Of a stretch of 64,000 nt of DNA, positions 6,633-64,000 are shown in pieces (position 1 is the stretch's first letter; each line of letters opens with the position of its first letter). The notes under the pieces are model-generated. The model was not told where the DNA came from, searched no databases, and saw only the letters and a program-made list of their open reading frames with translations. The translations under genes and the position numbers were made by a program. Origin of the DNA: Liolophura sinensis (lineage: Eukaryota > Mollusca > Polyplacophora > Chitonida > Chitonidae); the NCBI RefSeq assembly GCF_032854445.1, contig NC_088298.1, positions 22,343,295-22,407,294 of the forward strand, in the 5' to 3' direction.

Positions 6633-6689
6633 AACCAGTCAAAAGTAAAGAAAAAGATTGTATAATATGGCCTTGGAATTGCAAAGCTA

Positions 6690-7055
6690 TCTTCCACTTC
6701 ATCATTAGCTTGTTCATTTCCCATGCTAGCTTCCACTTGATCAGTTGCTTGTTCATTTCCCATGCTAACTTCCACTTGATCATCTGCTTGTTCATTTCCC
6801 ATGCTAACTTCCACTTCATCATCTGCTTGTTTGTTTCCCATGCTAACTTCCACTTGATCATCTGATTGTTCATTTCCCATGCTAACTTCCACTTGATCAT
6901 CTGATTGTTCATTTCCCAGCTAACTTCCACTTGATCATCTGCTTGTTCATTTCCCAGCTAACTTCCACTTCATCATCATCTTGTTCATTTCCCATGCTAA
7001 CTTCGACTTCATCATCTGATTGTTCATTTCCCATGCTAACTTCCACTTCGTCTTA
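6690..7055. repeat. Minisatellite, about 36-38-bp unit
   Basis: About ten copies of TTCATTTCCCATGCTAACTT followed by CCACTTGATCATCTG. Frames on both strands remain open across it but encode only the repeat. Confidence 0.95.
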
Positions 7056-11100: not shown

Positions 11101-14100
11101 CATAAACCTGACTGCAGATACTGTATGATGGGAGTGAAAAATTCCTTAACACAGTGTTAAACACCAGTCAAATCAATAAATGAGTCCTACTTGTTCATAA
11201 GTATCAAATTTAATCATTATTAAATCTCATTACATACATAACAGTGTAACAGATTACTTGGAAATTTTGGTGATGGAATGTCTTCTACTTTCAGCTGCTG
11301 GAAGACTTAAGCCCCTGTCGACATCACCCAGATGTAGCAGAGCTGATAGACATCTTGTCCTACCCGCACATGCTGGTGAGTTACTTGACTAATGTATGCA
11401 CGATGTTCGTTTAATGGAAGGGTTTTGGCCACGAGGTTGGGATGGGCGTGGCCACTAGGTTGGGATAGGTGTTGCAATGAGGTTGGGATGGGCGTGGCCA
11501 CTAGGTTGGGATGGGTGTTGCAATGAGGTTGGGATGGGCCTGGCCACAAAATTGGGATGGGCGTGGCCATGAGGCTCGGATGAGTGTGAGAACATCATTT
11601 GCATTGGTTTTCAAGGCAAGAGAGGGGAGATAACTGCTGCTGTTCTGTTTTCTACATGGTTGCTCAAGTATGGACTAGTCTTGCTGGAATGTTCCTGTTG
11701 TTACCTTACTCATTCACAATGATTATTTTCAGTTCTTTGACCAAACAGAATAAAAAAATTGGAAGTATTTTGTCTTTGACACCAAGAAGAGAAGATAGAG
11801 AATATATTGAGCTGGATCATTATGACTATTCGCGCATATTATAGTCTTTCACAGAAGCTGTAATATTCTGCTGTATTTTCAGACACTGCTGTGTGCTCAT
11901 GACAGTATAGCCTGTAAGGACTACGACCCGCGCCTTCCCCCTATACCTCTGGAGGTGGACGAAGATGATGAGGTCGTTAAGGTTGTGAAACTGATTAAAA
12001 ATAACGAACCACTGGTGAGTAGTTTCAGCAAATAATAAAACTGTCACAGAATGAATTTAAAGCAGGGATTCCCTGTCTGGCTTGCAGTTCTGGATCCATG
12101 AATTGAGGCCTATACTTCATCTTGAGAAGAATTTATTACGGGTGGATAGGAAGCCAGCATGAACTGGACTTGAACTCACAGCGACCGTATTGGTGAGAGG
12201 TTCCTGGGTCATTGCGTCCCTCTGGTACACTAACCACGGGGGCCCCAAGGTCACATTGATAACCTTTATTCACGAAGTCACTGGACAGCCATTTTCCATG
12301 AGTCAAGACCAGCTTTTCCTAATTTGACTGACAAACATCGAGGTTGGAGAGTAGGGGTTTTTTGAGTGTTTGACTGAGCATAGGATTGTGAAGATGACTG
12401 CATTGATTATAAAAACTGAACCTATAAATAGTCTGCTTTGCTGATCGGGGTTAAATAATAAACATAAAAAAGCCTGGGCAGTTTTTTATGAGGAGAAACT
12501 GTGTTTTGAGCTAAGAACAGATAGGTCATTTGATGGTAATAAGTTTCTAACAAATGTTAGTTTGTTCGTTTGTTTTAGGGTGCTACCATCCATCAGAATG
12601 AGATAACGGGAGTGATCGAGATAGCGAGGGTCATGAAAGGTGGTGCCGCTGACCGAAGTGGTGAGATCTGCCTCCTTTGTCTCAAAATCCATTTGACCAT
12701 TTTCTAGCTACAATGTGAAGCTGTGGTCACCGTATTCCAATCAAGTTTCAAAATCTTGTATACGACACACTGCTGTCAACATGAAGACAAATTAAATCAA
12801 CTTATTTCCATGAAAACAATTTAAATTATTATACCTCATGTACGTTTCTCTTACCCTCATTGGATGGAACCATGTCATGTGGGGATCAGCATTTCATGAT
12901 GTTGTGAGGTTGTTTTGGTGGCAAAGGCAAAATCCTGCTACATCAGTGACCGATACTACAAAGACTTTTCTGACTTAAATCAGAACTTAAGACATTGTCA
13001 CAATGTTAAGTTTTCTTTAATGGAAGATAAAATTTTGACACATTTTTCTTTAAAATAACATTACTGGGGTGGTCAAAATTTTAATTTTCAGGTCTCACAA
13101 ATAAGCTCTAAAATCATATTCTAGATTTTTGACTTAAGTCAAAACTGGCTTTGTGGAATCGGCCCCTGACCTGAGTTGTGTCCCCTTGTAATCTAATTTC
13201 CAAATCTTGTACGATGTATTAAGCACTCTGCAGATTGACACATTGTTACATCTAAGATGATCATGATGTGTCATGATGTGTGCAATGAGAAGACTTCTGC
13301 ATGTTGCAGAGTAGAACATTGTGCTTTGCATGCATGCAGGCTCTTAACAGTCGGTTCCACACAACATACATGCACCATTGATTGCGTATCGTTAACTGTT
13401 TAAGAGATGTGGGGTATCGTGTAAAAATTTTGGAAATTCAAATTTCGTTTAACGTGTTGTTGCAGGTTTAATTCACGTGGGAGACCAGGTTTGTGAAGTG
13501 AATGGAATCTCAGTCCAGGGCAAAACTCCAGATGACATTTTGGAAATATTGGTCTGTTACTTTCTCACTTTATATTACCACTTTGTCTTTTATTATGGAC
13601 GTTTTCTTTTTATCACTGACCTTGTCTTTGCATCATTGACAGTGTCATTGTATCATTGACCGTGTCATTGTATCATTGACCTTGTCTTTGTATCGTTGAC
13701 CTTGTCGTCATATCATTGACCTTGTCTTGTATCATTGACCTTTTCTGTGAATCACTGACCTTTTCTGTGTATCACTGACCTTGTCTTTATTATTGTGCAA
13801 TTATTTGTTTCATTAACCTATTCTGTCATTGACCTTGTCTTTGTAACATTGACCCTGTCTTTGTATCATTGACCTTGTTTTTATATAATTGACCCTTTCT
13901 GTGTATCATTGACCTTGTCTTTGTTATTGTACTATTCTTTGTTTCACTGACCTATTCTTACATTGATCGTCTTTGAATCATTGACCTTGTTGTATCATTG
14001 ACCTTGTCTTTGTACCATTGACCTTACAGTTGTATCATTGACTCTGCCTTTGTATCAGTGACCTTACAGTTGTATCATTGACTCTGCCTTTGTATCATTG

Positions 14101-17100
14101 ACTTTGTCTTTGTATCAGTGACCTTACAGTTGTATCATTGATTCTGCCTTTGTATCATTGACTCTGCCTTTGTATCATTGACTTTGTCTTTGTATCATTG
14201 ACTTTGTCTTTGTATCAATGACCTTACAGTTGTATCATTGACTCTGCCTTTGTATCATTGACCTTGTCTTTGTATCAATGACCTTGTCTTTGTATCAATG
14301 ACCTTGCCTTTGTATCATTGACCTTGCCTTTGTATCATTGACCATGTCGTATCACTGACCTTGCCTTTGTATCATTGACCTTGTCTTTGTATCAATGACC
14401 TTGTCTTTGTATCAGTGACCTTACAGTTGTATCATTGACTCTGCCTTTGTATCATTGACTTTGTCTTTGTATCATTGAACTTGTCTTTGTATCGTTGACC
14501 TTGTCTGTAACATTGACCTTGCCTTCGCATCACTGACCTTGATTTTCATAGGTCGGTGCTCGTAGAAAGGCTGCGATAGTTTCACGTTTGAGGACTCAGA
14601 AAAGCAGATTGTTTTTATCCTGCTCTCACTAGGTTACCTTTGGCCTATTTCCAGGTCAACGTAAAACTCACGGGCGTCTGAACTTTCTTCCTAAAGACTG
14701 ATTTAGACTTGTTCTCCAATATTGAAAAGTGAAAGCAATCTTATTTTAAGTAAATAAATCAGATAAGTTTACTCGTGGTGCATTTTAATTTCCCCAAACC
14801 GTCAAACTTATGAAATAAATAAATAATTAGTTAGTTGACCTGTAACTTACATCTCTTCCCCCTCTGTTGTTAGACAGCTTCTGGCAACACGGTCACGCTG
14901 AAGTTATACCCTGCCCAAGACACAGTGTCATCCCATAGAGAAAGCACGGTAAGTGCAGGGGTCAAATGGGGTAACTGATGCTCTCTGTGAATGTTAATTA
15001 CCATAAATTACCAGATTCCCAATTTCAGTAATTTTCGTATTGAGCTGAAATTTGATATTCATTTGCCTCCAAAGTTTGATCTCTTTCATAGCAAATCTAA
15101 ATTTTCAGTGTATTTCTTGGACAGAAAAAAATCCAGTCATATCTTAAGAGTGTAAGGTCACATTTAAAAATAGGCAACTGGGCACTTAGAAATTGTCAAT
15201 AAATAACAATAATAATAAATAAAAATAGTCATAAAATACTGTTTTCAGATGAAGGTGCGAGCGCTGTTTGACTACATACCCATACAAGACGAGCTGAATC
15301 CATGCCCAGAGGCCAGTCTGAGCTTTTCCAAGGGAGATATCCTCCATGTTGTTTGTCAGGAAGACTCCCTCTGGTGGCAGGCCAAGAAAAGGGGAGATAA
15401 TAGCATCAGGGCAGGCTTGATACCAAGTCGACATTTACAGGAGCGGTAAAGTTACAGTATATTCTGTATTTTTAACGGATGCATACAATGTTTTTTTCTC
15501 ATGAGGATGAAAGGAGTAAGCATTCAGCAGAGCTCCAAATGAAAATGAGACAGAGGGATGATGTCAATGTGTTAATATTGAGATTCATTTCCCTCTCTTC
15601 CCAAGTAGGTTAATGATAGTTTTGTCAGTTCTTCACCAAACATCTTCGGAGCTGATTTGTGATAAAAACTGCTGAAGTTGCTCATCTCCACTTCAGAAGG
15701 CCCAACTGTGTCGGACAATATTGTAGTGACATTTTGACCAACTTTCTGTGATCTTTTATTTCTTTTCTCCAGGAGGCGTATAATAAAGTTAAATATGGTG
15801 AATGGATCTAGCACCCAAGATGCAGAGAACAGCAGGAAAAGTAAGCTGAAGAAATAATAATTAATTTATTGAAGAACGTTTGATCAATTTATAAAGTGAT
15901 TTTTCTTTCTGAACGCTTTGAAATGCACCTTCAGAAGCACATTTAGGCCATCAAATGAAACTTTTGTTGCCGACACTTAAGACTGTCTGATAAGAAAATG
16001 AATCCAACTTCTCAAAACTCATAAATAGCCCTAAATAAGGAAAATCATTCAGGCTCGAGCAAAATGTTTGACTTGGAAAAAAAGCTAATCTGTAAGTGAA
16101 ATACAGTATTTCATCAAAACAAATAATAATATAAATACACTGGGTGTGACAAATTAATGAATGCATGGACATGGAAGCACCTTAGTTACACAGTTCACGG
16201 TTTAGTGTAATGGAATTGAGGTTGTATCAAGGTGCGAGTTCAATCCCAGTCTTGGCTAAAGAATTTGTATATTTTCTCGCTCACACTGTTGTTAAGGAGC
16301 CTTGGTGATAGTAAGTGTTTGATAATGCTTGTGTGGCAGTTTGCACAGTATAACATTCGTTATAAACTGCTTTTAGTCCAGAAATGTTGCATGTGTATCA
16401 CATGTCGGCAAGTTTGTCAGCAACTGTCACCCTTTCACCCTAGGTATCTTTCCTTCGCCTATAAAACTAACCACGAGGGAGTGAAAAATACTTGAGTATG
16501 ATATTCAACAACAGCGAAAGAAATAAAAAAAATTTACTCTGTAGTTGTCAAATAAATACATGTAACTATATGTATTTGCCCAGGTCCTGTACTCAGCCCT
16601 TCATCTAGCCCTGGTTTTAAACAGTGTCGTCGCCTGAAAAAGATGATGTATTACGTCTCACAGAATCCAGGTATGTGTTAGGTTTTTTTTTTTTTTTACA
16701 GTTTGCTCTAGGCAGATGCCTGGTATAACATTGCATCAACAGGCAGAAACAGAATATAAAAAATTACATTTTTTTTCAACCAGGAAACAGTGAATACTAC
16801 ATCATTACATAATCAACTGAAATCATAAATAAGTAGAGACATGTTTAAATTCACTGGCTGAAATAATTTTTCAAATATGAGGAATATGGTCACCAGCTGT
16901 CACAATTACCCACATAGCCGTGTTCGTTTGCCCCGTCAGTGGATCATCCTACGCGGTGTTGTCATCTGTTCCGTGCAGTTCATGGTATGGCTGTTTTTTT
17001 TTTTTCCATGGAGTTTTTTTCATGTGAAATGAAATTTCTACATCTAGTTCCCATAACATTAATATACTAGTATAGGATCACATGGTTTGGATTGTAATAT

Positions 17101-20100
17101 CATCTCTTTGGCCTTTTAGGCCCATCTTCCAAGCCTTGATTGCCATGGTTGCAAAATTGCCGATGTGGCCTTGAGCCATAATCATTCATTCATTCCTAGC
17201 CTAAAGTTCAACTGTATTAGTTGGGGTCTGAAGAAGCTGTCTTAAGATAGAATTTGCAGCAGGTTTATCAGGTCATAATCGGGTTATGGCTAAATGTATA
17301 TACATGTATATGTGTCAATAAAGTATCCCACAGGAAATTTGAAAAGCGTAAATTATATTTTGGGGATTTTGCACAGCCGAGATATTGGAGTTCAAAGTAA
17401 GTAAATTTGTGCACATTGATAAAGTTTTATTCAGCCATGATAAACAGCCTTTTGTGTAAACAGTTTCTTCTAAAGAACCACTAAATAGATTGTCCTAAAA
17501 TTTTATTTTCATGAAGGCACATCCTATGTTCAGTAAGATTGAGAAAATCGATGACTTCCGATTTATTTTTTTAGGTGTTCCGGTGTATTTTGGCCGGTGA
17601 TTCTAAATCTGCTTTTATTTGCTATCCATCTCTGTAACTGAGATATAGTCAAGAAAGTAATTTAGTTACATAATTTCAGTGGTGTGTAACTCTAGAACTA
17701 CGACAGCTATCAGCTATCTGAACAGATATATAATCTGTTGACTTGCTTGTTTCTGCGGCACTGTCCAGGATTTTCCAAAGCAGTTGTGTGATTAGATACA
17801 GCTATGCTGTCTCCTATTTAATAGTGTAGAATGATAACTACAACAAATGACATCAACCGTGGCCACAACTGGTTTGCAGTTCTAGTGTTATTTGTTTTCA
17901 TTTTTTTATTTTTTTTTATCTTTTCATTTTCAGTTGTATCTAACAGTGGAATTCATAACACAGAATGTCATGGGTTATCTGTAATATTGATTGACTTTAT
18001 TTCAGCATATGACCTAGATGAGGTGGTAACCTATGAAGAGGTGGAGCTAAGCTACCCAGTACCTGGCAGATTTAGACCCATTGTTCTCATAGGTTTGTCC
18101 ATACACCTGTTTTTATATGGCTTTTTGACCCAGGAGCCTCTCACCAGTTAATACAGTTACTGTGAATTCCAACTGATGCTGGCTTCCTGGCCAACCGTAT
18201 GTGGTTAAGGCCTTCCGGCAGCGTGCAGAATGTCATGAGTTTCCCAGGTTTCCTCCCGTTATAATGCTGGCTGACGTCATTATAAGTGATATATTTTTGA
18301 GTATGGCGTGAAACACCAATCAGATAAATAAGTAAGTAAATAAAATAAACCTAAAGTTCCCCTAGAATTTTTCAGCTGACACAGTTTGATCGATTCTGAT
18401 TGGTTCAACCACATTATAGGAACACTGCAGAGTTTGATTAAATTCCTTATCAGAAATGTGTTGGCATTAAAAAGTATCAATTTAAGGCCATTAATTTAAG
18501 TGCTTCTAGAAAGAGCATTTTTACATACCAAACTTTAGGTGAAATACAGTAATCTGTGAGACCGTGATATACCGCGATAATTTGTGTGGGGTATTTGTTA
18601 TTTTTTTTATAACACATTCATGCTATCCATGTATTTTCTTGTGTTCCATCTGTCCATAGGAGCCCCAGGTGTAGGCCGGAATGAACTGAAAAGACGACTC
18701 ATAGGCAGCAAGTCTGAACATTTCCAGGATGTAGTACCATGTAAGGGAAGTCATTCCATGTTGTCATATTACCAATTCTGACATTTAGTGCCAGTGCAAG
18801 TAAAAATTGCTTTCCAGAGCTCAGGGGCTTTGCAAGGGGAAATCATTTACAGGACCTGGGAGCTTTGTGAGGGAAATCATTTCCAAGGCCTAGGGGCTTT
18901 GTAAGGGAAATCATTGCCAAGGCCTAGGGGCTTTGTGAGGGAAATCATTGCCAAGGCCTAGGGGCTTTGTGAGGGGAATCATTGCCAAGGCCTAGGGGCT
19001 TTGCGAGGGAAATCATTTCTAGGGCCTAGGGGCTTTGTGAGGGAAATCATTGCCAATGCCTAGGGACTTTGTGAGGGAAATCATTGCCAAGGCCTAGGGG
19101 CTTTGTGAGGGAAATCATTGCCAAGGCCTAGGGGCTTTGCGAGGGAAATCATTTCTAGGGCCTAGGGGCTTTGTGAGGGAAATCATTGCCAAGGCCTAGG
19201 GGCTTTGTGAGGGAAATCATTGCCAAGGCCTAGGGGCTTTGCGAGGGAAATCATTTCTAGGGCCTAGGGGCTTTGTGAGGGAAATCATTGCCAAGGCCTA
19301 GGGGTTTTGTGAGGGAAATCATTGCCAAGGCCTAGGGGCTTTGTGAGGGAAATCATTGCCAAGGCCTAGGGGCTTTGCGAGGGAAATCATTTCTAGGGCC
19401 TAGGGGCTTTGTGAGGGAAATCATTGCCAAGGCCTAGGGGCTTTGTGAGGGAAATCATTGCCAAGGCCTAGGGGCTTTCCGAGGGAAATCATTTCCATGG
19501 CCTAGGGGCTTTGTGAGGAAAGTCATTTCTAGGGTCTAGGGCCTTTGTGGAGGAAATCATTTCCAGGTCCTTGGGGCTTTGTGAGAGACATCATTCCTTG
19601 GGCCCATGGGCTGGGTGAGAGACATCATTTCCAGGGCCTAGGAGCTTTGTGAGAGACATCATTCCTTGGGCCCATGGGCTGGGTGAGAGACATCATTTCC
19701 AGGGCCTAGGAGCTTTGTGAGAGACATCATTTCCAGGACCTAGGGGCTTTGTGAAGAAATCATTTCTAGGGTCAAGGGCCTTTGTGGAGGAAATCATTCC
19801 CAGGGCCTAGGTCTTTGTGAGAGACATCATTTCCAGGGCCTAGGGGCTTTGTGAGGGACATCATTTCCAGGGCCCAGGGGCTTTATGAAAAACATCATTC
19901 CCTTGGCCCTGGGGTTTTGTGACAGACATCATTTTCAGGGCCCAGGGACTGTGTGAGGGAAATCATTTCCAGGGCTCAGGGGCTTTGTGGGGGACATCAT
20001 TTCTAGTACATAGGAGCTTAGTAATGGAAATTATTTCAGGATTTAGTGCCACTAAAGTGTAATCAGTTCCGGGTCATAGTGCCATGTAAGTGAAATTGTT

Positions 20101-23100
20101 TCAGGGACACTAATCATTTCCTGGATGTAGTGCCATGGTAGTTAAATTTCACCCAGGTCCACATACACATATGAACTGATGGTTGTCAAATACTGATACT
20201 GGACAAATAAATCATTTAAAAAAAAACCTGTTTACTGCACAGATACATCAAGACCTAGGAGGCATCCGGAGCAGGACGGGAAGGATTACAACTTCGTCTC
20301 ACGAGAAGAAATGGAAAAAAATATTTTATTACAAAAGTAAGTGAATGAATAGCCCTGTAGTGTGATAGTTTGAATATCTAGTGACCTTCAGCTATAGTGA
20401 CTCAATTGAAAGAAGTTTGATAAGATGCATGTATTTGAATTTGGATCAGTCATTAACCAATCACTATAAATGGGAAGTTTCATTTTGTCAATTCAGCACT
20501 GCTACAAGCACAAAAAGTGTGTAGCACAAATAGTGAAGTGTGTGTTCAAGGCTTGAATAAGTGTCCATGAGTCAGTATTAGGTTAGAATAAAACAAAAAA
20601 TTAACAAGGACATGAGACCTTTCCGCTCAAGCTGTTTTCTCTTGTGCAGCTAGGGCATAATCCACAGATGTTGTGGGAAAATCTTGGTGCAAGACTGCAT
20701 ACTTTGAGAAAGATGTGTACCAGGGTGATGTGATTTTCAAGTGCCGTGTACTTCACAGTTTGCTGGTTCTTAACCTAGGTCAGATACATGTACTTTGAAT
20801 AAAAACTAAGTTTATAAGTTAACCAATATGAAATGCACTAACCTTCACTTAAAGTGTACCACACCCTCACTTATATTGTACCTCACCCTTACTTATATTG
20901 TACCTCACCCTTACTTATATGGTACCACACCCTTACTTATATTGTACCACACCCTCACTTATATTGTACCTCACCCTTACTTATATTGTACCTCACCCTT
21001 ACTTATATGGTACCACACCCTCACTTTTATTGTACCGCACCCTCACTTTTATTGTACCGCACCCTCACCGATCAAGCAATAAAAGAGACAGGCACGTATC
21101 TGAATAGTGTATATTATGGGAAGTCTGTGCTGAATTAGGACATCTGTCGGGACAAATTGGGAAACAGACAGTAGGGAATGGGACGGAATATTGACCCTTG
21201 GAGCATAGAAGCTTTATGCCCTGGGTAATTATACATGTATTGTTGTTGGGTGCCTGTTATATGTATTATATACAGATATTATCTGTATGTGATCTATTTT
21301 ATGAGAAAGATAATCTTGTTAATCTGACAGGTTTGCTGAATACGGGGAATACAAAGGACATCTATATGGGACAAGCTTAGAATCCATCAGATCAGTCGTT
21401 ACATCAGGGAAGGTGTGTGTTCTCACACCGCATACACAGGTGAGTCTGTAAAGGCGTTCCTGATTGGTGGAAAGTTGCCATGTAAAGTAGCTTGTGATTG
21501 GTAGGTAATATACACAGGTGAGTCCATAAAACTTTTCCTGATTGGTGGAAAGTTGCTATGTAAAGTACCTTGTGATTGAAAGATAATATACACAGGTGTT
21601 AGTGTGTGCTTGGTAGTTAACATACATGGCTGCAGTCAGTCATAAGGTCAGGTAGCTTCTTATTGATAGGTAGATACAGTCAGGTAGCTTCTTATTGATA
21701 GGTAGATACAGTCAGGTAGCTTCTTATTGATAGGTAGATACACAGTCAGGTAGCTTCTTATTGATAGGTAGATACACAGTCAGGTAGCTTCTTATTGATA
21801 GGTAGATACACAGTCAGGTAGCTTCTTATTGATAGGTACATACAGTCAGGTAGCTTCTTATTGATAGGTAGATACAGTCAGGTAGCTTCTTATTGATAGG
21901 TAGATACACAGTCAGGTAGCTTCTTATTGATAGGTAGATACACAGTCAGGTAGCTTCTTATTGATAGGTAGATACATAGTCAGGTAGCTTCTTATTGATA
22001 GGTAGATACACAGTCAGGTAGCTTCTTATTGATAGGTAGATACACACAGTCAGGTAGCTTCTCATTGCCAGGCAATATACTCAGGCAGGTTTGTAAAACT
22101 TTCCTCATTGGTGGAAAGATACATTGTTTGTATAAAGGTAGCTTGTGATTGGCAGGTAACATACACAGGTGAGTTAGTAAAATCCTTCCTCATGAGCGGA
22201 AAGATACATCATTTTGTGAGGTAGCTTTTGATTGGTACCTAGCATACACAGGAGAGTTTGTAAAGTCATCTCTGTTTGGTGAGACAATAAACATTGTTTT
22301 GTAAGGTAGCTTGTGATTGGTAGGTAATATACACAGGAAAGTGTGTAAAGTCGTCCCTTATTGCTGGGACAATAAACATTGTTTTGTAAGGTAGCTTGTG
22401 ATTGGTAGGTAATATACACAGGAAAGTGTGTAAAGTCATCCCTTATTGCTGGGACAATAAACAGTGTTTTGTAAGGTAGCTTGTGATTGGTAGGTAATAT
22501 ACACAGGAAAGTGTGTAAAGTCATCCCTTATTGCTGGGACAATAAACAGTGTTTTGTAAGGTAGCTTGTGATTGGTTGGTAATATGCACAGGAAAGTGTG
22601 TAAAGTCGTCCCTTATTGCTGGGACAATAAACATTGTTTTGTAAGGTAGCTTGTGATTGGTAGGCAATATACACAGGAAAGTGTGTAAAGTCATCCCTTA
22701 TTGCTGGGACAATAAACAGTGTTTTGTAAGGTAGCTTGTGATTGGTAGGTAATATACACAGGAAAGTGTGTAAAGTCATCCCTTATTGCTGGGACAATAA
22801 ACAGTGTTTTGTAAGGTAGCTTGTGATTGGTAGGTAATATACACAAGTGCGTTTTCAAAGCCATTCCTGATTAATAGGTGGATATACAGTGATGGGTTAC
22901 AGTGTATGTAAGGTAAGTTGTGGCTGGTCAATTAACATATACACATTGGGAAACAAGGAATGTGAAAAACAGGCTCTTATGCAAGTACCTGGTAATCTAT
23001 ATACAGTCATGGAAAAAATTATTAGACCACCCTTGCTTTCTCCCATTTCTTGTTCATTTTAAAACCTTGGACAACTGAAGGAACATTTGTTTGGGCAAAG

Positions 23101-26100
23101 AAAGTGATGAAAACAGAAATAGTTCATAAGGGTTTTATTTATTCTCAAAAACATTTTGGCATTTCGTTTTTTCTCCTGTCTCCTAGTCACGTAGTCACAT
23201 GACTCTCAGTCTCACACGGGAGTTAGTACTTGATTGCATGCCCATTGTTTTTGATGACTGCAGCCATGCGCCTTGGCATGCTCTCCACCAGTTTGTTACA
23301 TTGCCCCGCGGTCACAGCAGCCCATTCCTGTTGCAAAAATTCAAACAAATTTGCTTTGTTTTTGGGCTTGTGGTTCTCCATTTTGAACTTGATAATATTC
23401 CACAGGTTTTCAATTGGATTCAGATCAGGTGACTGAGCAGGCCAATTCATGGTTCGAATGTTCCGGTTCTCTATCCAGGTTTTAACTGACTTTGCTGTGT
23501 GGCAAGGGACATTGTCTTGTTGGAAAATCCAGTCATTCGAGCCAGGAAAGAGTTTAGCAGCTGATGGAAGAAGACTGTTTTCAAGAGTAGCTCTGTATGT
23601 GACTTGGTTCATTCTCCCTTCACACAACTGCATCTGTCCTGTTCCACCCATACTGAAACAACCCCAGATCATCACTGATCCACCCCCATGCTTTACAGTA
23701 GGAGCAAGGCAGTCTGGTTTGTAGGCTTCCCCAGGCTTCCTCCTAACCAGTAAGTTGGCTGGAGTAGGCATCAACTCAAAATTGGATTCATCACTGAAGA
23801 GAACTTTAGCCTAATCATCAACAGTCCAATTCTTGTGATCCCTCGCAAAACGCAAGCGGGCCTTCCGCTGCCTCTCGTTGATGAAGGGCTTCTTCCGTGC
23901 CCTGTGCGACTTTAGACCAGCTTCAAGAAGTCGGTTTCGAACTGTTCTTGCTGAACAAGTCACATTTGTTGACAATGCCCACTCATTTGTAAGGTCTCTG
24001 GAGGTCTGACGACGATTCTTGATACAGGACCGGATGAGTGCTCGGTCATCTCGTGGGGTAGAAAGACGTTTCCTGTCTCGACCAGCTAGCAGTTTTGTAG
24101 TACCATGTTCGGCTTGCTTTTTCTTGGTGTAATGAACTGCTGTCTTAGAGATCTTCAGTTTTTTGGCCACTTGTCGCTCGCTCAATCCAGTATCCAGCTG
24201 TGCCAAGATGGCTGCCTTTCTGGCTCCACATAATTCTTTCGTTTTAGGCATTATGAGAGCTGACAACTACCGAGTTGTGCTGCGTCTTAATATATAAACA
24301 AGAGACCCCTATTTATGTAAGCCTACCTGTAAACAGGAAACCACTCTTTATGTAAGTTTGCATGTAAATGGAAACCATGAAATTGCATCGCATACACCCT
24401 AGGAATAAAACTGACCTTAAAGCATATCAAATACGACAAAGTATTATGGAATCAGCTGAATTTTGTCGTATTCATTGTAATCTTCGGTTAATACACCTTT
24501 AGGGTTGCCAGGCATTAAAATGAACAAGAAACCAAAGAAAATATGAGTGGTCTAATAATTTTTTCCGTGACTGTATGTTTCTCGGGACATAAGAGGGAAG
24601 ATGTGCCAGCAAACGGCGGGTTGTCGTGAGTTTTCAGTGGGCTCTGGTGGATTTCCTCCCACCATAATGCTGGCCACCATCATATAAGTGAAATATTCTT
24701 TGGTACGCCGTAAACACCAATGAAACAAATAAATCTGTAATGTTCGAAAGAGGCAAAGATAAGATACAGGTCATTCAAAATACCCCAATAGTAAATGAAC
24801 AATATTTTACAAACTGTATTTATATTTGCAGGCTTTAAAGTTTCTACGCACCCGGGAAATTCAGCCTTTCATTATTCTAGTGAAGCCCCCAATTTTAGAG
24901 GTTCTCAGAGAAAGTAGACGAGCGCATCAAGCCCGAGCGACTATAGATGAAAACCAAACCAGGCCTTTTACGGTAAGTTGTACGCCATACAGATCTTCCT
25001 GCCATTCTCCTCTTTTGAAGGTAGAAAAGATTAGTTTCTCTTTCATATTTGTATTCCCTGTTGCTTTGTTACCAAACACTCTGTCTTGCCAGTTTTTGAC
25101 AAAATTATCAAGACAATCTCAATGAAATAATGATTTTGACAGAGAGAAGATTATGGCTGAGTGGGTAGTGTGCTTGTCTAACAACCACCAGATCACAGGA
25201 GACATGGGTTCAACCCCAGCCTTGGACAGGGAATTTTCAAGATCCTCCTGATCCCATTGTTCTCGGGGGTTTGGTACCCTAATTCTTCATCCTTTTCACA
25301 ACATTGTGTGCAATTTATGCCCCGGTATTTTAAATTTGATTTCGGACACTAAACTACATCAGTCAGGTTGGCCAATTTCAGGGCGTCATAAGAAGTATAT
25401 TGTTATCAGTCTACAGTGAATAATGCTTTCAGAATATGCTGGAATGAACCCCTTGCAGTAACAGTAAGCAGTTGACTGAACTTGGTTTGGCCTTAAATGA
25501 AGTTTAGTGGGGACCAATTGACTTCCACCAATATGAGATGTCACATGTGGAGAAACTCTCCAAAGTTCATTGTTGTACTCCGGGCGCTCTAATTTCCTCC
25601 ATCCTTAACAGAATGGCCACTATCCTATATCATATTTCCTGATTCCATAACAGTTATTTCTAGTTTGTTTGCTTTGGGTTTCGCATTACTTCTTACCTGA
25701 TTTTTGTCCCACCGCAACTGTGACTCCTTGAAATAGGAATGTCTCAGTGCTGAATGACTGAAAAACCATTTGGTTTCACTGAAACACCACACCAAAGACA
25801 CCAGACTTACCAGTCATTCACTCAAGCCAGAATGTATGTGTAAAACCCATGGGTTCTAGCTCTGTAAAATGCCTGCCATTTTGTATAATATGTTTTAATG
25901 ATGAAACCTGTTAATTGTGGGAGTGACCGTGAGTTTTCCATTTGTTTACAGGATGCTGATTTTGAGGAAATGCTGTCTCGCACCCACAAGATTCAGAATC
26001 AGTATGGACATTATTTCGATTATGTGATAATCAATGATGAACTAACAGTAGCTGTGAATGAACTGATTCGAATTGCACATTCCATTGAAAACGAACCTCA

Positions 26101-31145: not shown

Positions 31146-33656
31146 TTAGTCCAGGGCCTCAATCAGACTCCTCCAGAAAATGACCTGTTCCGCTTGATCA
31201 GCGCTCCACTTCAGGAAGGTGATCTTGTGCCACAGGTTTCTCAGCGCCTTCGGCATTTGACGAACTGGAATGTCCTCCATCAGTACACACAATATAATGT
31301 CGTCCCTGCCGTCGCTCAGAGATTTCATCACCGCATACTCGATTTCTAGTGGACCGTAGGTCGACTCCAGAAAATGTTGGCTAATAATCAAGAGAATTTT
31401 ACGACTTTCCCTCATTTTGTCAACGATATTTTCGTGGATCGGTTTTCCGGGTGTAAAATCTCTGTCATGGATGCAGAGTTTGAAAGACTTTTCAAGTAAC
31501 TCGAGATTGGGGAAAAGCTGTTGGGAGACCCATTCCCTTTCTTCAGACGTGTAGGCCACGAAAGCGTCAAAAACATACTCTTGCTCAGCGAACATGTCCT
31601 TCGGAGGTTGCAGCCTTGTATACAGCCAGTACCTTAAATTTGTGCGGTAGCGATACATAACCACAAGCAATAAAATTAACATGGAAACTGTCGAAATAGC
31701 AACTACAGATATTATTATATACGTTGAGCTCACACAGTTGACCTCAAAATTCCTAATGTCCTTGCTAAATTCAAGAATCGACATCCACGATCCATTAGAC
31801 ACCAAGCATGTGTAACTGTCTACATTATCCAAGTTATCTTTTCTGTTTCCTATCCAGCGGATGAACAAGACGGTGTCACAAGTACACTGTAGAGGATTCT
31901 TTCCCATGATCAGTAAAAAAGGTTTCTCTTTACCACCTCTGACGATCCAGCGATCAATCAGTGCAATTTCATCCGTCTGAAGATAAGTGAAAGCATTTCT
32001 AGATAAGTCCAACCGCTGCAATGCGGGTAAATGTGAAATAGCACTGGGAAGTCGCTGTAGTTTGTTGTTTGCCAAGTTGACATTTAGAAGCCGTTTGTTG
32101 TTTTGAAAAAGTCGAGGGTGTATGTCAAATATCGTGTTGCCTGACAAGTCGATGTACTCTAAGACATCAAGCATTTCGAAGGACGTCAACGACGAACTGG
32201 AAAAGTCTAAGTCAATCGAATTGGATAGCGAGAGATGGGTAACATTTCTAAGATCCTCGAAATAATCCCTGTGTACATTATAACATCTTATGCCTGAAAG
32301 ATCCAAATATGTTAGACTACCAATCCCCTTAAACACTGACTGTACACAGTTGCCTAGATTGTTGTATGCTAAAGCCAAGTGCCTGAGATTTTCCGCGTTA
32401 TGGAAATATATAGGTTCTTTCATATACAACCAATAAGCGATGCCACTCAAGTCGACTTTTTCTAAAGACCGTGGCAAATATATAGAGCCTGGGTTGAAAT
32501 CTACCGCTCCTTGATGGTTTAACCCCGGGTGAGAGTACTCCACATAGTGGCCTCCAACTTTTGGAATCCCAAACCCATAGCTGAAGTCAATTGACTTCAA
32601 GACCTGAGATTGTACGAAAAATGCTTGGAAAACATATGGAAAACACCGTAATGAATGGTATGACATGTTGAAATGCTCCAGACATTGGCTTAATTTAACG
32701 CCTCCACTGAGGCTCACATAGGTGATGAAGTTTTCGGATAAATCTAACGATTTTATGCACATATTCAGAAGGGTTTTCATATCATCTGAGTTTAACACGA
32801 AATAGTTTCCTCTCTCACACGAGCTGTTGTTTAGACGAGCTATTCTGATTTCTTTCATCTCACGATTGTTAAAAGAACGCAGCGATTTGATGGCTTGAAC
32901 GAGTCCTAAATTAATGTTGTTTGAAAGATCCAATGTATCTAACGCAGTCAAGGGGTCAAAGGTACCGCTTTCTATGGTATCAATACCACAGTTGATCAGT
33001 CGTAGTTCCGTGATGTTCACTTCCCACAGGACGCTGAAGGTAGAATTTCTCAGCGCGCGTAAATTACACTCACTGTACAATCGCCACCGACCTGCAGTAG
33101 AAACGGTTTTCAGCTTGGTCAACTCACTAAATCCTATCCCGAAGACAAACTCAGGGGGAAAGTCGATATACAGTTTGGTTAGGTTCTTCAGCATCTGAAA
33201 GGTTGTGTCGATTCCTCTCCACTCTGATACCGGAACGGACATATGTTGCATGCGTATCTCTCTCAGAGCAGCCAGCGGCTCGAACAGTTCTGGCGTCAGT
33301 ACATCTGGACTGAGCGCTATTCCATTTCCCGATAGGTTCAAGATGGCCAAATGGTCGAGTCCAACAAATGCTCTGGTTTCCAGATGAGCTATAACATTGT
33401 ACGACAGATCCAAATATTTCAAAGCTGAGTTTTTGCAAAATGTTTCGTTTTTTATTCTTCTCAATTTGTTGCCACTAAGGTCGATCTCTTCGGCGTTGTC
33501 GAAGTGGATATTTTCTGTTGGAATATGGTGAAGTTGACGGGAGCCACAATCCAGGAAACCACTCACTGAATCGAAGGTACAGGGTAAACTTGCCACTTTC
33601 CAAACAGCTGAAATTCCGACCAGAAAGACCAGCATTGCCAAGCCCGTTGTGCACAT
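31146..33656 (-). CDS. Toll-like receptor, single exon, single cysteine-cluster type
   Basis: Uninterrupted 836-residue frame. Residues 1-24 look like a signal peptide. A short cysteine-bearing LRRNT (PCTF...LDCG) is followed by many leucine-rich repeats (for example LKYLDLSYN, LAILNLSGN, LEYIDLSGN, LQRLDLSRN). One LRRCT (NPLQCTCD) lies next to the membrane, then a hydrophobic helix at about 645-669 and a TIR domain at 694-836. TIR boxes are visible: box 1 FDAFVAYTS, box 2 RDFTPG with its proline, and an FW near the C-terminus as box 3. One membrane-proximal LRRCT makes this the vertebrate-type (single cysteine cluster) layout. By family knowledge it senses ligand at a membrane and signals through TIR adaptors such as MyD88; the ligand cannot be inferred. 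No intron is needed. It sits between direct repeats (26843-29058 and 34178-36696). Confidence 0.95.
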   Translation of the reverse strand: MCTTGLAMLVFLVGISAVWKVASLPCTFDSVSGFLDCGSRQLHHIPTENIHFDNAEEIDLSGNKLRRIKNETFCKNSALKYLDLSYNVIAHLETRAFVGLDHLAILNLSGNGIALSPDVLTPELFEPLAALREIRMQHMSVPVSEWRGIDTTFQMLKNLTKLYIDFPPEFVFGIGFSELTKLKTVSTAGRWRLYSECNLRALRNSTFSVLWEVNITELRLINCGIDTIESGTFDPLTALDTLDLSNNINLGLVQAIKSLRSFNNREMKEIRIARLNNSSCERGNYFVLNSDDMKTLLNMCIKSLDLSENFITYVSLSGGVKLSQCLEHFNMSYHSLRCFPYVFQAFFVQSQVLKSIDFSYGFGIPKVGGHYVEYSHPGLNHQGAVDFNPGSIYLPRSLEKVDLSGIAYWLYMKEPIYFHNAENLRHLALAYNNLGNCVQSVFKGIGSLTYLDLSGIRCYNVHRDYFEDLRNVTHLSLSNSIDLDFSSSSLTSFEMLDVLEYIDLSGNTIFDIHPRLFQNNKRLLNVNLANNKLQRLPSAISHLPALQRLDLSRNAFTYLQTDEIALIDRWIVRGGKEKPFLLIMGKNPLQCTCDTVLFIRWIGNRKDNLDNVDSYTCLVSNGSWMSILEFSKDIRNFEVNCVSSTYIIISVVAISTVSMLILLLVVMYRYRTNLRYWLYTRLQPPKDMFAEQEYVFDAFVAYTSEEREWVSQQLFPNLELLEKSFKLCIHDRDFTPGKPIHENIVDKMRESRKILLIISQHFLESTYGPLEIEYAVMKSLSDGRDDIILCVLMEDIPVRQMPKALRNLWHKITFLKWSADQAEQVIFWRSLIEALD

Positions 33657-34177
33657 TTTTTCGTATGTCTCGGAGAAATTTCTGTAAATAAAATGTCCAC
33701 AAATTGGAATATTTTGACCCCATTATCGCAGTCAAAAGACCTCAGAACCAGTTGACAAAGTTTACAAGTTGTGTTCAATGAAACGTGAACAAAAGCTTTG
33801 TCCAGTGTTTCAAAAATTTGCATAGATTTAGAGAACGTGATTTTCAACTCTGGGATTCCTCATTCACATGTTGATTATTCTTTTGTTGTTGTTGTAGCCC
33901 TTGTGAAGAATATTGGGCAATATGTTTTTGGTAAACAGTAATTTGTCGTGAACAGTAGTTTGTAGTACACAATGGTTGTGGGGCATAACAGTTTATCGAG
34001 CACCGTAGTTTGTGGTGTGTAGGAGTTCAGTTAAGAGAGTCGTCTGCAGTCCGCGGCACCAGGGAAAAGATGAACTGGCGAAACACGCAACTTACAGGGA
34101 ATGCATGTATCCATCTCTAGGCTGCTATGGTGTTAGAAGTGTTTGACAGCCTTCAGTTTGGTTTGTCTTTAAGTAAA
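33657..34177. other. TLR upstream region
   Basis: About 520 bases between the TLR start and direct repeat B. It should contain the promoter if transcription starts close by. A kB-like site is at 33852. A GTAGTTTGT motif recurs three or four times between 33940 and 34015. Confidence 0.4.
33852..33861. promoter_or_regulatory. NF-kB-like site upstream of the TLR
   Basis: GGGATTCCTC, about 195 bases upstream of the TLR start codon, matches GGGRNWYYCC at nine of ten positions. Such a site is common by chance, so this is only suggestive of Rel control. Confidence 0.15.
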
Positions 34178-38798: not shown

Positions 38799-41700
38799 AT
38801 GGCTGGATTTAAGCCTTTTGGTGTCAACCAGGTACAATTACTGTGTATAATGTGTAAAACAAGACTAAACTTAGTGCAATTAAATTAAACGTTGAGGTCT
38901 ATTCTCAACTATTTCTGATATTTACCTGCCTCAACGTTTATTGGCTGAATTCAAAAGCCCGGTAGGTTAGTTCCATAAGGCACTTTGCGGAACGAAGTTG
39001 GCCATTAAATCGAGTCCAAAACGGCGGCACAAGCAGATTTCTGGTGTTGAATGAGAATTAAGAGATGGGTCATTTCGATCACTTGCAGAGTAGATTTTGT
39101 GAAGGCTAAACTAAGTTAATTTAGATTAGAAAATTATGATAGTTGATTATGTGCTGCATAGATTTTAAAATTCTGACATTCATTATAACAGTCCATCACA
39201 GCCTCTCAAGAAAAATGGCATGGACTAACTCCCATCTCCTTCCCACTTCTGGCAATATAACTAACCTCCTCTGCTCATTTCTATTTAATTTTCTGGTGGA
39301 ATCTTGAATACTGTCCTTGTATTTTACTATCATCAACAATGAAACTAAATAAATTGCTGCTTTGTGGTCACATGGACTGCTAGAAGGTGTAGGGGTTCAC
39401 AGCAGGTTTAAAGTATGACATGTAAATGTAAATTTCGCATTGAGATCTTCTCCATCTGTCTGTTTTTCTGTCTCTTTGCCTGTCGGTCTCTCCATCTCCC
39501 TCTCTCTCTCTCCGTCTCTCTATCTCTCTTTGTGTAAGTCCTCTACACTTTTGATTGGATTTGCATGAAACTTTGTACATGCAGGCATGACAGAGACCAT
39601 ATGAGGATGTAAATTTGTTTGGGTTGTGCTGCATCAATTATTTCCAGAGTAATTGCCCTTTCTACATAAAAATGAGTGAGTGGGTGTTTGGGGTTTATGT
39701 CATACTTAACAGTTTTTCAGTAATGTGCCTCCTTGTTGGGGGATGGATTTCCACCGCTCTTATCTAGTGCTGCTTCACTGAGACGCCTTACCGAAGGCAA
39801 GTAAGGCGCCCCGCCCAGGCCATTATACTGGTACAGGTCAACCAAGCGAGGAAGGTGCAACCTCCCCTTTAAAACTTTTATTTAGTCTTTAGCTGTTTGT
39901 GGTGCGTTACATCAATTGTTTCCAAAGTTATTGTTCTTTAATAGTAGAATGGGGATAGATAGTAAGTCTTTGTCAACACATCTCTCGCTTCCTTCTGATT
40001 ACTCTGGGTTTTTTCATCACTGAATCACTCACTTTCTTTCTTTCTATCTTGACAGCTGTCATTTAAAGAGGGACAAGAAGTACGCATCCTGTTAAAACAG
40101 GACTGTAACTGGTGGTGGGCAGAGCTTGATGGTTGGCAAGGCTATGTCCCTGCAAATCATTTCACTCATCGGACCTCTAAACAGTTTGTGTGGCAAGATG
40201 ACGAGTACTTTGGAAATTACAGCCACTTGGTGAGTAAAGTCCTTCCCACAGTTTTGACCATATTGGCCCTGTTAGACTGTATTGGCAATGTTAGACCATA
40301 TAGCCCAGTTGGACTATTTTGGCTGTGTTAGACCATATTGCCCCAGTGGTATTGGCCAAATGTGCCAACTTGCTAAAGGTCTGTGGTGTGCAAAGGGTAC
40401 TGCAATTGCCTTTGTCCATAATTATGGAAATGAAACATTTTTAAAGGTGGCAACAAAGATTATGTATCAAAGGGAATGAAGATACATACATGTAGCCCCA
40501 GAAAAAATTTTAAGAGGTTTTTTTTTTGTTTTTTTCCCCCCCCAATATTTTATGCATAATTCGCGACAGTGGTCGAACATATTCAGAAATGATGTCATCG
40601 ATGAACATACTGGGTACACAAGACCAGCATACTGCCCCCATTTGTGTGACAGCCGTCAACGCTGAGACATACTTAATGTCTGTACTGATCTCTGAGGCCT
40701 TGTAAACTGTAATTTAAAGCCATTTTATCTCCCCAAGAAGAAATTGGAGAAGATTTTTTGTACCTTTATGTTTTAGGCCAGTTTGGAAACTCTTTAAGAA
40801 ATAAATTTCAAGTGTTTCAAGAGATAAGACTTTAAACTCCGAAGTAAATAAATTAATACCCTTAAATGGCAAAGTTACCCACAAGCCTTTCACCAAGGTG
40901 GTCGCTGTGAGTTCAAGTACACCTCATGCTGGCTTCCTCTCCGGCCATACACGGGAAGGTCTCTCAGCAACCTGCGGATGGTCATGGATTTCCCCTGGGC
41001 TCTGCTTCATTTCCACCCTGCGTAATACTGGCTGCTGTCGTATGAGTGAAATATTCTTGAGTACGGCGTAAAACACTAATCAAATAAATAAATAAATGGC
41101 AAGGATTAATGACCTTGATAAGGTTACAAGTATGGATAAACCCCATGTACATATACACTAAGCAGTCTTTTTCAATTTTTGTACATAAATAATTGTTTTA
41201 TTTACTTATTTAAAGGTGAAATGTCAGGATTCCTTCGTTGATAAAAGTGATGTCTCATCTCACTGCCTGGAGTTAGATGTAACTTGTTGTTGCACACCCC
41301 GATGCCATGACGTCAAAAAGAAACATTTTGTTTTATGATCATCCAATCCAAGTTAAGCAGAATGACGTAACAATACAAGTTCAGTCAACTGTAACATTTC
41401 TTACGTCACGTAATAAGACAGGACATCATGCTGTATACAGAAGCCTGTGAAGGTCTACAGCTAAAAGCATTGCTTGAACTTGTTCAATTACACAAAATCA
41501 CGACATTGTCAAAATATAAACTATGAGTAGAATATTGTACAGTGAAGGTTGAATATTATAAATATTTTTCTCATGGAAAATGGAATAATTACCCATTTAG
41601 GGTTAGGGTTAGGGTTAGTTAGTTCTAGGGTTCAACCTTCAATGTGCTCTGTGTATCTGATTTTCATTTATTTTCAGAAACTTCACCAGGAAATGCTGAG

Positions 41701-50211: not shown

Positions 50212-50400
50212 TGTAGCTGTTACAGCCTGCATGATTGGTATCCCAGCCTGAGTGGTAGCTGTTACAGCCTGCATGATTGGTATCCCAGCCTGAGTGGAGG
50301 CTGTTACTTTTTAGATGATTGTTATCCCATCCTGAGTTGTAGCTGTCACAGCCTGATTGATTGCTATCTATCCATTGAAACAGACATTTGTATACCAGCT
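50212..50400. repeat. Minisatellite, 42-bp unit
   Basis: CCTGCATGATTGGTATCCCA followed by GCCTGAGTGGTAGCTGTTACAG with period 42 (50226, 50268). It decays over about four units and is related to the 50895-51480 array. Confidence 0.9.
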
Positions 50401-50894
50401 GTCAAGCAAAAAGGGTCAATAAAGTCAAGGCTTATTTCCAAATCGATGTTTAACACAAATTACCAAAGAACCAATAAAGTACACGAAGTACAAAAATAGG
50501 ACAGAATCATACAAAGGGAGGCTGTCAACAGTTTTCAGTGATGTAGGAAAGATGCAAGGTATGTTCTATGTGACTGAGTGAAATTAGTATTTAAATCATG
50601 TAACATGCTAGAATATCAGTTGTCAACAACAAAATATGTATTTCAGTTGAGCTTGGATAGCAACAATACGGTCCCTAGCCCCTAGGGGCTAGACATTCTG
50701 AATACTCTGTCAATATTTACTTACAAGAGAACTGTACACATTGTTAAACTTAAGAAACTTGTAGTGAAGGAGTTTGATGGAATAATCTTGATGCACAAGT
50801 TTTTGCAGTAGTAACCTGTGAAGATTGAAATCGTCACAGAACGAGCAGGATTTAACAAATGCTACAAGGCCAGATGTGTACACGCCATATGCAG

Positions 50895-51480
50895 AACTCT
50901 TCTGGGTGGTAGTTGTTAAAGCCTGGATGATTGCTATCACAGCCCGAGTGGTACATGTAACTACCACAACCTGGATGATTGCTGTCCCATTCAGAGTGGT
51001 ATATGTAGCTATTACAGCCTGGATGATTGCTGTCCCATTCCGAGTGGTAGATGTAGCTATTACAGCCTTGATGACTGCTGTCCCATTCTGAGTGGTACAT
51101 GTAGCTTTTACAGCCTTGATGATTGCTGTCGCATTCTGATTGGTAAGTGTTGCGGTCTGGATGATTGCTGTCACGTTCTGAGTGGTAAGTGTTGCAGGCT
51201 GGTTGATTGCTATCCCATTGTAAGTGGTACAAGTAGCTGTGACAGCCTGCATGATTGCTAACCCATCCTGAATGGTAAGCGGTTACAGCATGCATGATTG
51301 GTATCCCAGCCTGAGTGGTAACTGTTACAGCCTGCATGATTGCTAACCCATCCTGAATGGTAGCTGTTACAGCATGCATGTTTGCTGTGTGGTAGGTGTT
51401 ACAGCCTATGTGATTGCTATCCCAGCCTGATCAAGCGGTAGCTGTAACAGCCTGTAATAGCCTGCCCGGATGTATGATTA
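50895..51480. repeat. Minisatellite, 48-bp unit passing into a 42-bp form
   Basis: CTGGATGATTGCTGTCCCAT recurs at 50971, 51019, 51067 and 51115, a 48-base period. From about 51240 the unit reverts to the 42-base type seen at 50212. Long open frames on both strands are repeat artefacts. Confidence 0.92.
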
Positions 51481-62732: not shown

Positions 62733-62747
62733 AATAATCGAGTTCAC

Positions 62748-64000
62748 ATTGCCATTTAGTCCACACTGCCATGTAGTCCACACTGCCTTGTAGTCCACAC
62801 TGCCTTTTAGTCCACACTGCCATGTAGTCCACACTGCCTTTTAGTCCACACTGCCTTGTAGTCTACACTGCCTTTTAGTCCACACTGCCATGTAGTCCAC
62901 ACTGCCTTGTAGTCCACACTGCCATGTGGTCCACACTGCCATGTGGTCCACGTAGTGTAGTCCACACTGTAGTCCACACTGCCATGTGGGTCTTGTAGTC
63001 CACACTGCCATGTGGTCCACACTGCCATGTAGTCCACACTGCCTTGTAGTCTACACTGCCTTTTAGTCCACACTGCCATGTAGTCCACACTGCCTTGTAG
63101 TCTACACTGCCATGTGGTCCACACTGCCTTGTAGTCCACACTGCCTTGTAGTCTACACTGCCTTTTAGTCCACACTGCCATGTAGTCCACACTGCCTTGT
63201 AGTCCACACTGCCTTTTAGTCCACACTGCCATGTAGTCCACACTGCCTTTTAGTCCACACTGCCTTGTAGTCTACACTGCCTTTTAGTCCACACTGCCAT
63301 GTAGTCCACACTGCCTTGTAGTCCACACTGCCATGTGGTCCACACTGCCATGTGGTCCACGTAGTGTAGTCCACACTGTAGTCCACACTGCCATGTGGGT
63401 CTTGTAGTCCACACTGCCATGTGGTCCACACTGCCATGTAGTCCACACTGCCTTGTAGTCTACACTGCCTTTTAGTCCACACTGCCATGTAGTCCACACT
63501 GCCTTGTAGTCTACACTGCCATGTGGTCCACACTGCCTTGTAGTCCACACTGCCTTGTAGTCTACACTGCCTTTTAGTCCACACTGCCATGTAGTCCACA
63601 CTGCCTTGTAGTCTACACTGCCTTGTAGTCCACACTGCCATGTAGTTCACACTGCCTTGTAGTCCACACTGCCATGTAGTCCACACTGCCTTGTAGTCCA
63701 CACTGCCTTGTAGTCCACACTGTCATGTGGTCCACACTGCCTTGTAGTCTACACTGCCTTGTAGTCCACACTGCCATGTAGTTCACACTGCCTTGTAGTC
63801 CACACTGCCATGTAGTCCACACTGCCTTGTAGTCCACACTGCCTTGTAGTCCACACTGCCATGTGGTCCACACTGCCTTGTAGTCCACACTGCCATGTAG
63901 TCCACACTGCCTTGTAGTCCACACTGCCTTGTAGTCCACACTGCCATGTGGTCCACACTGCCTTGTAGTCCACACTGCCATGTAGTCTACACTGCCTTGT
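62748..64000. repeat. 17-bp satellite with higher-order 409-bp period, open at right edge
   Basis: Over 70 copies of TAGTCCACACTGCCATG or variants ending CTTG/CTTT. An irregular CACGTAGTGTAGTCC segment occurs at about 62949 and again 409 bases later, and the order of variants around it is the same, so a higher-order unit of about 24 monomers is duplicated. Minus-strand frames stay open because no monomer phase contains a stop. Confidence 0.95.

Follow-up and report, generated by a model that had tools for sequence, protein, structure and literature searches.

A minisatellite derived from an exon/5′ splice-site junction in an intron of a predicted chiton MAGUK gene

Tandem duplications spanning an exon-intron boundary are known from amphioxus, where these so-called mirages are found in Adh3, the globins BflGb6 and BflGb9, TnC, and PGBD5 (PMC3087553), and where, in the portions of the reports drawn on here, splicing is apparently undisturbed by them (PMC3087553; PMC3902484). 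The array described here, located in an intron of the chiton Liolophura sinensis, resembles them, as far as these portions go, in its minisatellite-like copies across the boundary with splice signals in many units and in its homogenised middle with deviating boundary copies (PMC3087553; PMC3902484). However, the host of the amphioxus mirages is a cephalochordate, whereas the present host is a mollusc, and the units differ, measuring 10-72 bp in Adh3 and, in BflGb6, numbering 3-6 with a length of 150-160 bp (excerpts of PMC3087553), compared with about 36-40 units of 33-34 bp in the chiton. Moreover, the cited excerpts include RT-PCR and somatic instability for the amphioxus mirages, whereas the chiton array is known from the assembly sequence alone.

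Also, boundary repeats in human segmental duplications are similar, with minisatellite units of ~30 bp at exon-intron boundaries, and are able to shift splicing (PMC2812944, in part). Nonetheless, the same part of that report describes them as recent features of primate gene duplicates that are associated with new introns, whereas in the chiton an old intron has been enlarged. The tandem genomic duplication modelled by Rogers likewise involves tandem exon copies with splice signals (named in PMC3087553 and PMC2812944; see also PMC4974935), but this model yields a new intron, whereas the chiton intron has a position common to paralogues. No report of a boundary-spanning minisatellite in a mollusc appears among the matches listed in the open-licence literature.

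The window, i.e., the whole 64,000-bp stretch of DNA analysed (C4:22343295-22407294), belongs to one haploid assembly of 609,464,459 bases in 632 contigs, and the features around the array are the following.

18660..18740, plus strand: exon of the predicted MPP/p55-type MAGUK gene, start of the guanylate-kinase domain (...HFQDVVP/Y)
18741..18757, plus strand: true donor GTAAGG (GT at 18741) with the start of the intron, which corresponds to the intron side of the repeat unit
18752..18843, plus strand: 5′ edge of the array, strongly degenerate segments
18844..19997, plus strand: core of the array, made up of 34 regular units (33-34 bp), the middle homogenised with a recurring three-unit pattern of 102 bp
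19998..20149, plus strand: 3′ edge, oldest-looking copies, with the 33-bp register of the junction at 20031, 20064, and 20115
20243..20336, plus strand: next exon, 32 protein letters
21331..21439, plus strand: third guanylate-kinase exon, ending CATACACAG/GTGAGT

Joining 18660-18740 to 20243-20336 gives a 58-letter stretch of a MAGUK guanylate-kinase domain, and in the sequence comparison of this domain the closest solved structure is MPP1 (E 1.9e-12), with MPP5 second, followed by CASK and DLG. By this comparison, the gene is classified as an MPP/p55-type MAGUK. More of its exons lie at about 24826-24972 and about 26000. The three paralogues examined all have an intron at the position of the one following 18740 (phase 1, following Pro), and in none of the three does the corresponding intron contain copies of its own junction. 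The intron starting at 21440 also harbours, at 23226-24266 on the minus strand, two adjoining open frames that we take, from motifs such as SDESNF and MIWGCF, to be a Tc1/mariner-like transposase. Elsewhere in the window, an 858-codon open frame on the minus strand (31149-33722) has a leucine-rich-repeat-like look, judged by its first residues, and a putative SH3-type exon (NWWWAELDGWQGYVPANHF) belonging to another gene lies near 40050-40230 on the plus strand. Other minisatellites with units of 17-48 bp were reported by TRF at 6686-7048, 13583-14541, 20841-21068, 50213-51418, and 62741-64000.

In the intron beginning at 18741, TRF delimits an array at 18811-20037 with a period of 34 and 36.1 copies, and splitting the sequence on CATT gives 42 segments beyond the exon, the majority of 34 bp. 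Together with its degenerate edges, the array extends over 18752-20149, that is, 1,398 of the 1,502 bp or ~93% of the intron. It consists of head-to-tail copies, in part degenerate, of a 33-34 bp segment lying across the exon end and the donor, so that the tandem units cross the exon-intron boundary of a real gene; the exon side of the unit corresponds to the last ~22 bases of exon 18660..18740. HiFi reads for the genome of the chiton Liolophura japonica average 8,347 bp (PMC11068029), a length into which a 1.4-kb array fits.

The likeness of the junction to the array was evaluated with a query of 25 exon and 20 intron bases, the controls being 1000 dinucleotide shuffles and 1681 real 45-mers of the window. 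The Smith-Waterman score is 28 against the core (reached by no shuffle and by two window 45-mers) and 36 against the 3′ edge (reached by none of either control); against the 5′ edge, the score of 14 is not significant (299/1000 shuffles). For the halves of the query against the core, the exon part alone is equalled by 4 and the intron part alone by 1 of 1000 shuffles. At the level of single units, the 34 core units match on average 13.4 of the 22 exon bases (7.9 at random positions; P(>=14) 0.0004) and 13.0 of the 17 intron bases (random, 6.4). The corresponding means are 15.2 and 10.4 for the five units of the 3′ edge, where copy 20115 is identical at 20 of the 22 exon bases, and the three segments of the 5′ edge have 10-12 and 5-7 matches. 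An nhmmer search of the top strand of the 64 kb with the junction query (E<=10) gives 27 matches, corresponding to the junction itself, 24 in the intron, and two elsewhere. Individually, the non-self matches are weak, the best having an E of 0.01, so the evidence lies in their clustering in register. When a profile is built from the core and the array is masked, the junction is the best top-strand match, at an E of only 0.13, with a bottom-strand match elsewhere at 0.16. Also, when the 3′ half of the array was compared with the genome by BLAST, the alignment returned to window position 18719, where the exon part of the unit begins, and four readable edge segments give TAGTGCCA where the exon gives TAGTACCA, the differences being synonymous, with GTG or GTA for Val. 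On the shuffle and window controls, the clustered nhmmer matches, and the per-unit identities, the exon end and the units have a common descent. This agrees with the initial annotation, which had proposed growth of the array from the exon/5′ splice-site junction and an alignment of the junction to every unit as the check, an alignment that is better than random for the core and the 3′ edge and not significant for the 5′ edge. The latter, although not significant alone, presumably comes from the junction as well.

The copies also have an order. In a unit tree based on 34 columns, copies 20115 and 20064 are the nearest to the junction, in accordance with the edge copies (20064-20095 and 20115-20147) that the same annotation had named as closest to the exon end, and 20031 and 19998 also fall outside the core. 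The junction and copies 20031, 20064, and 20115 are without one base that is present in most core units. Among 38 units, 26 are distinct, and identical units occur in the interior only, in three-unit and two-unit repeating patterns; the interior evolves in concert, with the boundary copies excluded. The tree and the placing of the identical units fit old edges around a young, homogenised middle, although a rise in junction identity from centre to edge is not significant (Spearman 0.25, p 0.12; the alignment of a few units is wrong).

The most likely explanation is neutral growth by tandem duplication, that is, a mirage: a minisatellite seeded by duplication of the junction, later homogenised, and near-neutral in the intron, for which we would put the probability at about 0.85. 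The seed would be the tandem duplication of a ~33-bp segment that takes in ~22 bases at the end of the exon and ~11 at the start of the intron. Coding constraint would have kept the first copy as the genuine end of the exon, whereas the remaining copies would have fallen into the intron, diverged, and become one base longer (34 bp instead of 33). Slippage or unequal exchange may then have multiplied and homogenised the 34-bp copies, leaving the oldest-looking ones at the edge. Since splicing presumably keeps the first donor, the copies would be removed with the intron at little cost, close to neutral, and the array would be tolerated. A by-product of duplication, one of the outcomes considered at the outset, is thus the best reading of the array, its neutrality being probable.

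Similar arrays are found at other donors, one of them in the same gene.

21434..22850, plus strand: second junction-derived array, units of 78-85 bp and a nested 34-bp array

The units of this array carry ATACACAG/GTGAGT or decayed forms; the copies at 21512 and 22163 retain ACACAGGTGAGT, and the amplified 85-bp units read ACACAGGAAAGT. The copy downstream of donor 21440 scores 38 (null mean 16.5; 0/300 shuffles), and past this donor a stop occurs within a few codons. In the same test of window donors, donor 20337 has no local junction copies. The sample was extended to 76 distinct donors of exons from three Pfam families, six from the window and 70 from elsewhere; it is not random, with 58 regions hand-picked for short open frames, and loci with no called donor (18 of 45 and 13 of 58), together with L019 and L022, duplicates of donors in the window, were left out. 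A strong downstream copy of the junction is present at five donors, two of these arrays being known prior to the sampling: 18741, 21440, and three of the 70 outside the window, which belong to other genes and are the following.

L013, G000:C4:11160113-11160262, guanylate-kinase type: 55-bp unit, from -49 to +651, with 49 of the 55 bases exonic and 6 intron bases
L060, kinase: 67-bp unit, from -34 to +468
L064, G000:C10:22584126-22584335, kinase: 65-bp unit, from about -20 to +338, five downstream copies

Weaker donor matches, namely L079 (score 25, 0/200 shuffles), L109 (score 31, confined to the intron side), L106, and L008, were not counted. At random intron positions, such copies occur in 18 of 270 cases and, in a second set, in 34 of 348. 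With a 700-bp target, 3 of 76 donors have them, compared with 30 of 568 intron positions once the five array loci are set aside (Fisher p 0.79), the count for intron positions being 57 of 608 when these loci are included. TRF coverage rises from ~2% over the final 40 bases of the exon to ~5% at the donor, then to 6.5-7% within the 200 bases that follow, and is 10-15% further into the intron. For acceptors, 1 of the 41 tested in 45 loci has a local copy (L013, 31 bp upstream), and none of three in the window. Donors do not exceed the intron controls, and the idea of the donor as a hotspot of array birth is unsupported; arrays neither favour donors nor, outside the exon, avoid them. The proposal that only dead donors are amplified would fit 18741, whose core is without the exon-side match, and 21440, with GGAAAGT in its 85-bp units, but is contradicted by L064, whose copies carry GTAAGC, closer to the consensus than the true GTATGC, so decoy use is possible there. 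L064 offers a natural test of donor competition.

Among the alternatives, the best surviving one, although unlikely, is that the array works in splicing, as an intronic enhancer through its G runs or as decoys tuning the real donor. GGG runs reach 6.1 per 100 nt in the core versus 0.75 in the window, and a 38-bp repeat in intron 6 of human TERT is said to regulate splicing (PMC3948165, in the portion cited). As for decoys, several units hold GC or CC instead of GT, splice signals thus being kept in many units and not in all. With a donor weight matrix, the true donor scores 4.15, and only one of the 59 intronic GTs is as high (20086, GTAAGTGA), the commonest core form, GGCTTT/GTGAGGGA, present ten times in exact form, having a score of -0.4. 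By computed U1 duplex energy, this form (-4.9) equals the true donor (-4.9), and units 19615 and 19683 are stronger (-9.3). Judged by the matrix, the dozens of decoy 5′ splice sites described in the initial annotation are overstated. Reading through the true donor meets an in-frame stop at 18779, so any downstream decoy used would truncate the frame. Moreover, donors lie within arrays no more often than other positions in introns do, and the paralogous introns are without the array, all of which argues against a splicing role.

It is very improbable that an unrelated satellite invaded first and that the exon end was then converted towards the array by gene conversion. The core is far more abundant than the exon-like copies, as this sequence of events would have it. 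However, in the DNA searches of the assembly with the unit, a type of search that may under-report repeats, the intron at 18741 is the sole place where it occurs, and not elsewhere as for a dispersed satellite; one copy of the array locus was found in the haploid assembly, and all 22 matches to the unit pattern (<=3 mismatches, 609-Mb assembly) are inside this array. Also, the exon-like copies lie mostly at the 3′ edge, the farthest from the exon. The exon end is conserved, domain-coding sequence, and the intron position is common to the paralogues, which indicates a direction from the exon to the array.

A chance or composition-driven likeness of the junction to an unrelated minisatellite is hardly credible, for although single-unit alignments (best non-self E 0.01) and the core profile (0.13) are weak, the scores are reached by none of the shuffles and by 0-2 of the 1681 window 45-mers, 24 of the 26 non-self junction matches in the 64 kb are within this intron, and copy 20115 keeps its 20 exon bases. 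Just as little weight can be given to an intron in the making through tandem duplication of proto-splice sites (Rogers; PMC3087553), which the composition of the units (exon ends plus GT, and nearly all of the L013 unit exonic) would recall, because the intron is old, at the same position in 3/3 paralogues rather than new there, and because the copies hold stops, no acceptor was identified in them, and the existing intron was enlarged.

Junction-spanning arrays are known from lancelets, and the chiton represents a new animal group for them, with evidence of their frequency there. More tentatively, at somewhat less than even odds, mirages would not be peculiar to cephalochordates but could arise commonly wherever local tandem duplication acts on animal genomes rich in repeats, and in this chiton they may be present at several per cent of donors and perhaps at thousands genome-wide; exon ends would then feed intron growth, and the preference for the first donor would render the arrays harmless, even with stronger later copies. 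Should RNA and another species bear this out, mirages would extend from lancelets to molluscs, and these arrays would supply natural sets of nearly identical donors in competition, in which first-donor choice could be studied. Finally, the locus offers a concrete route for the enlargement of an old intron, with ~1.4 of its 1.5 kb coming from copies of its own 5′ junction.
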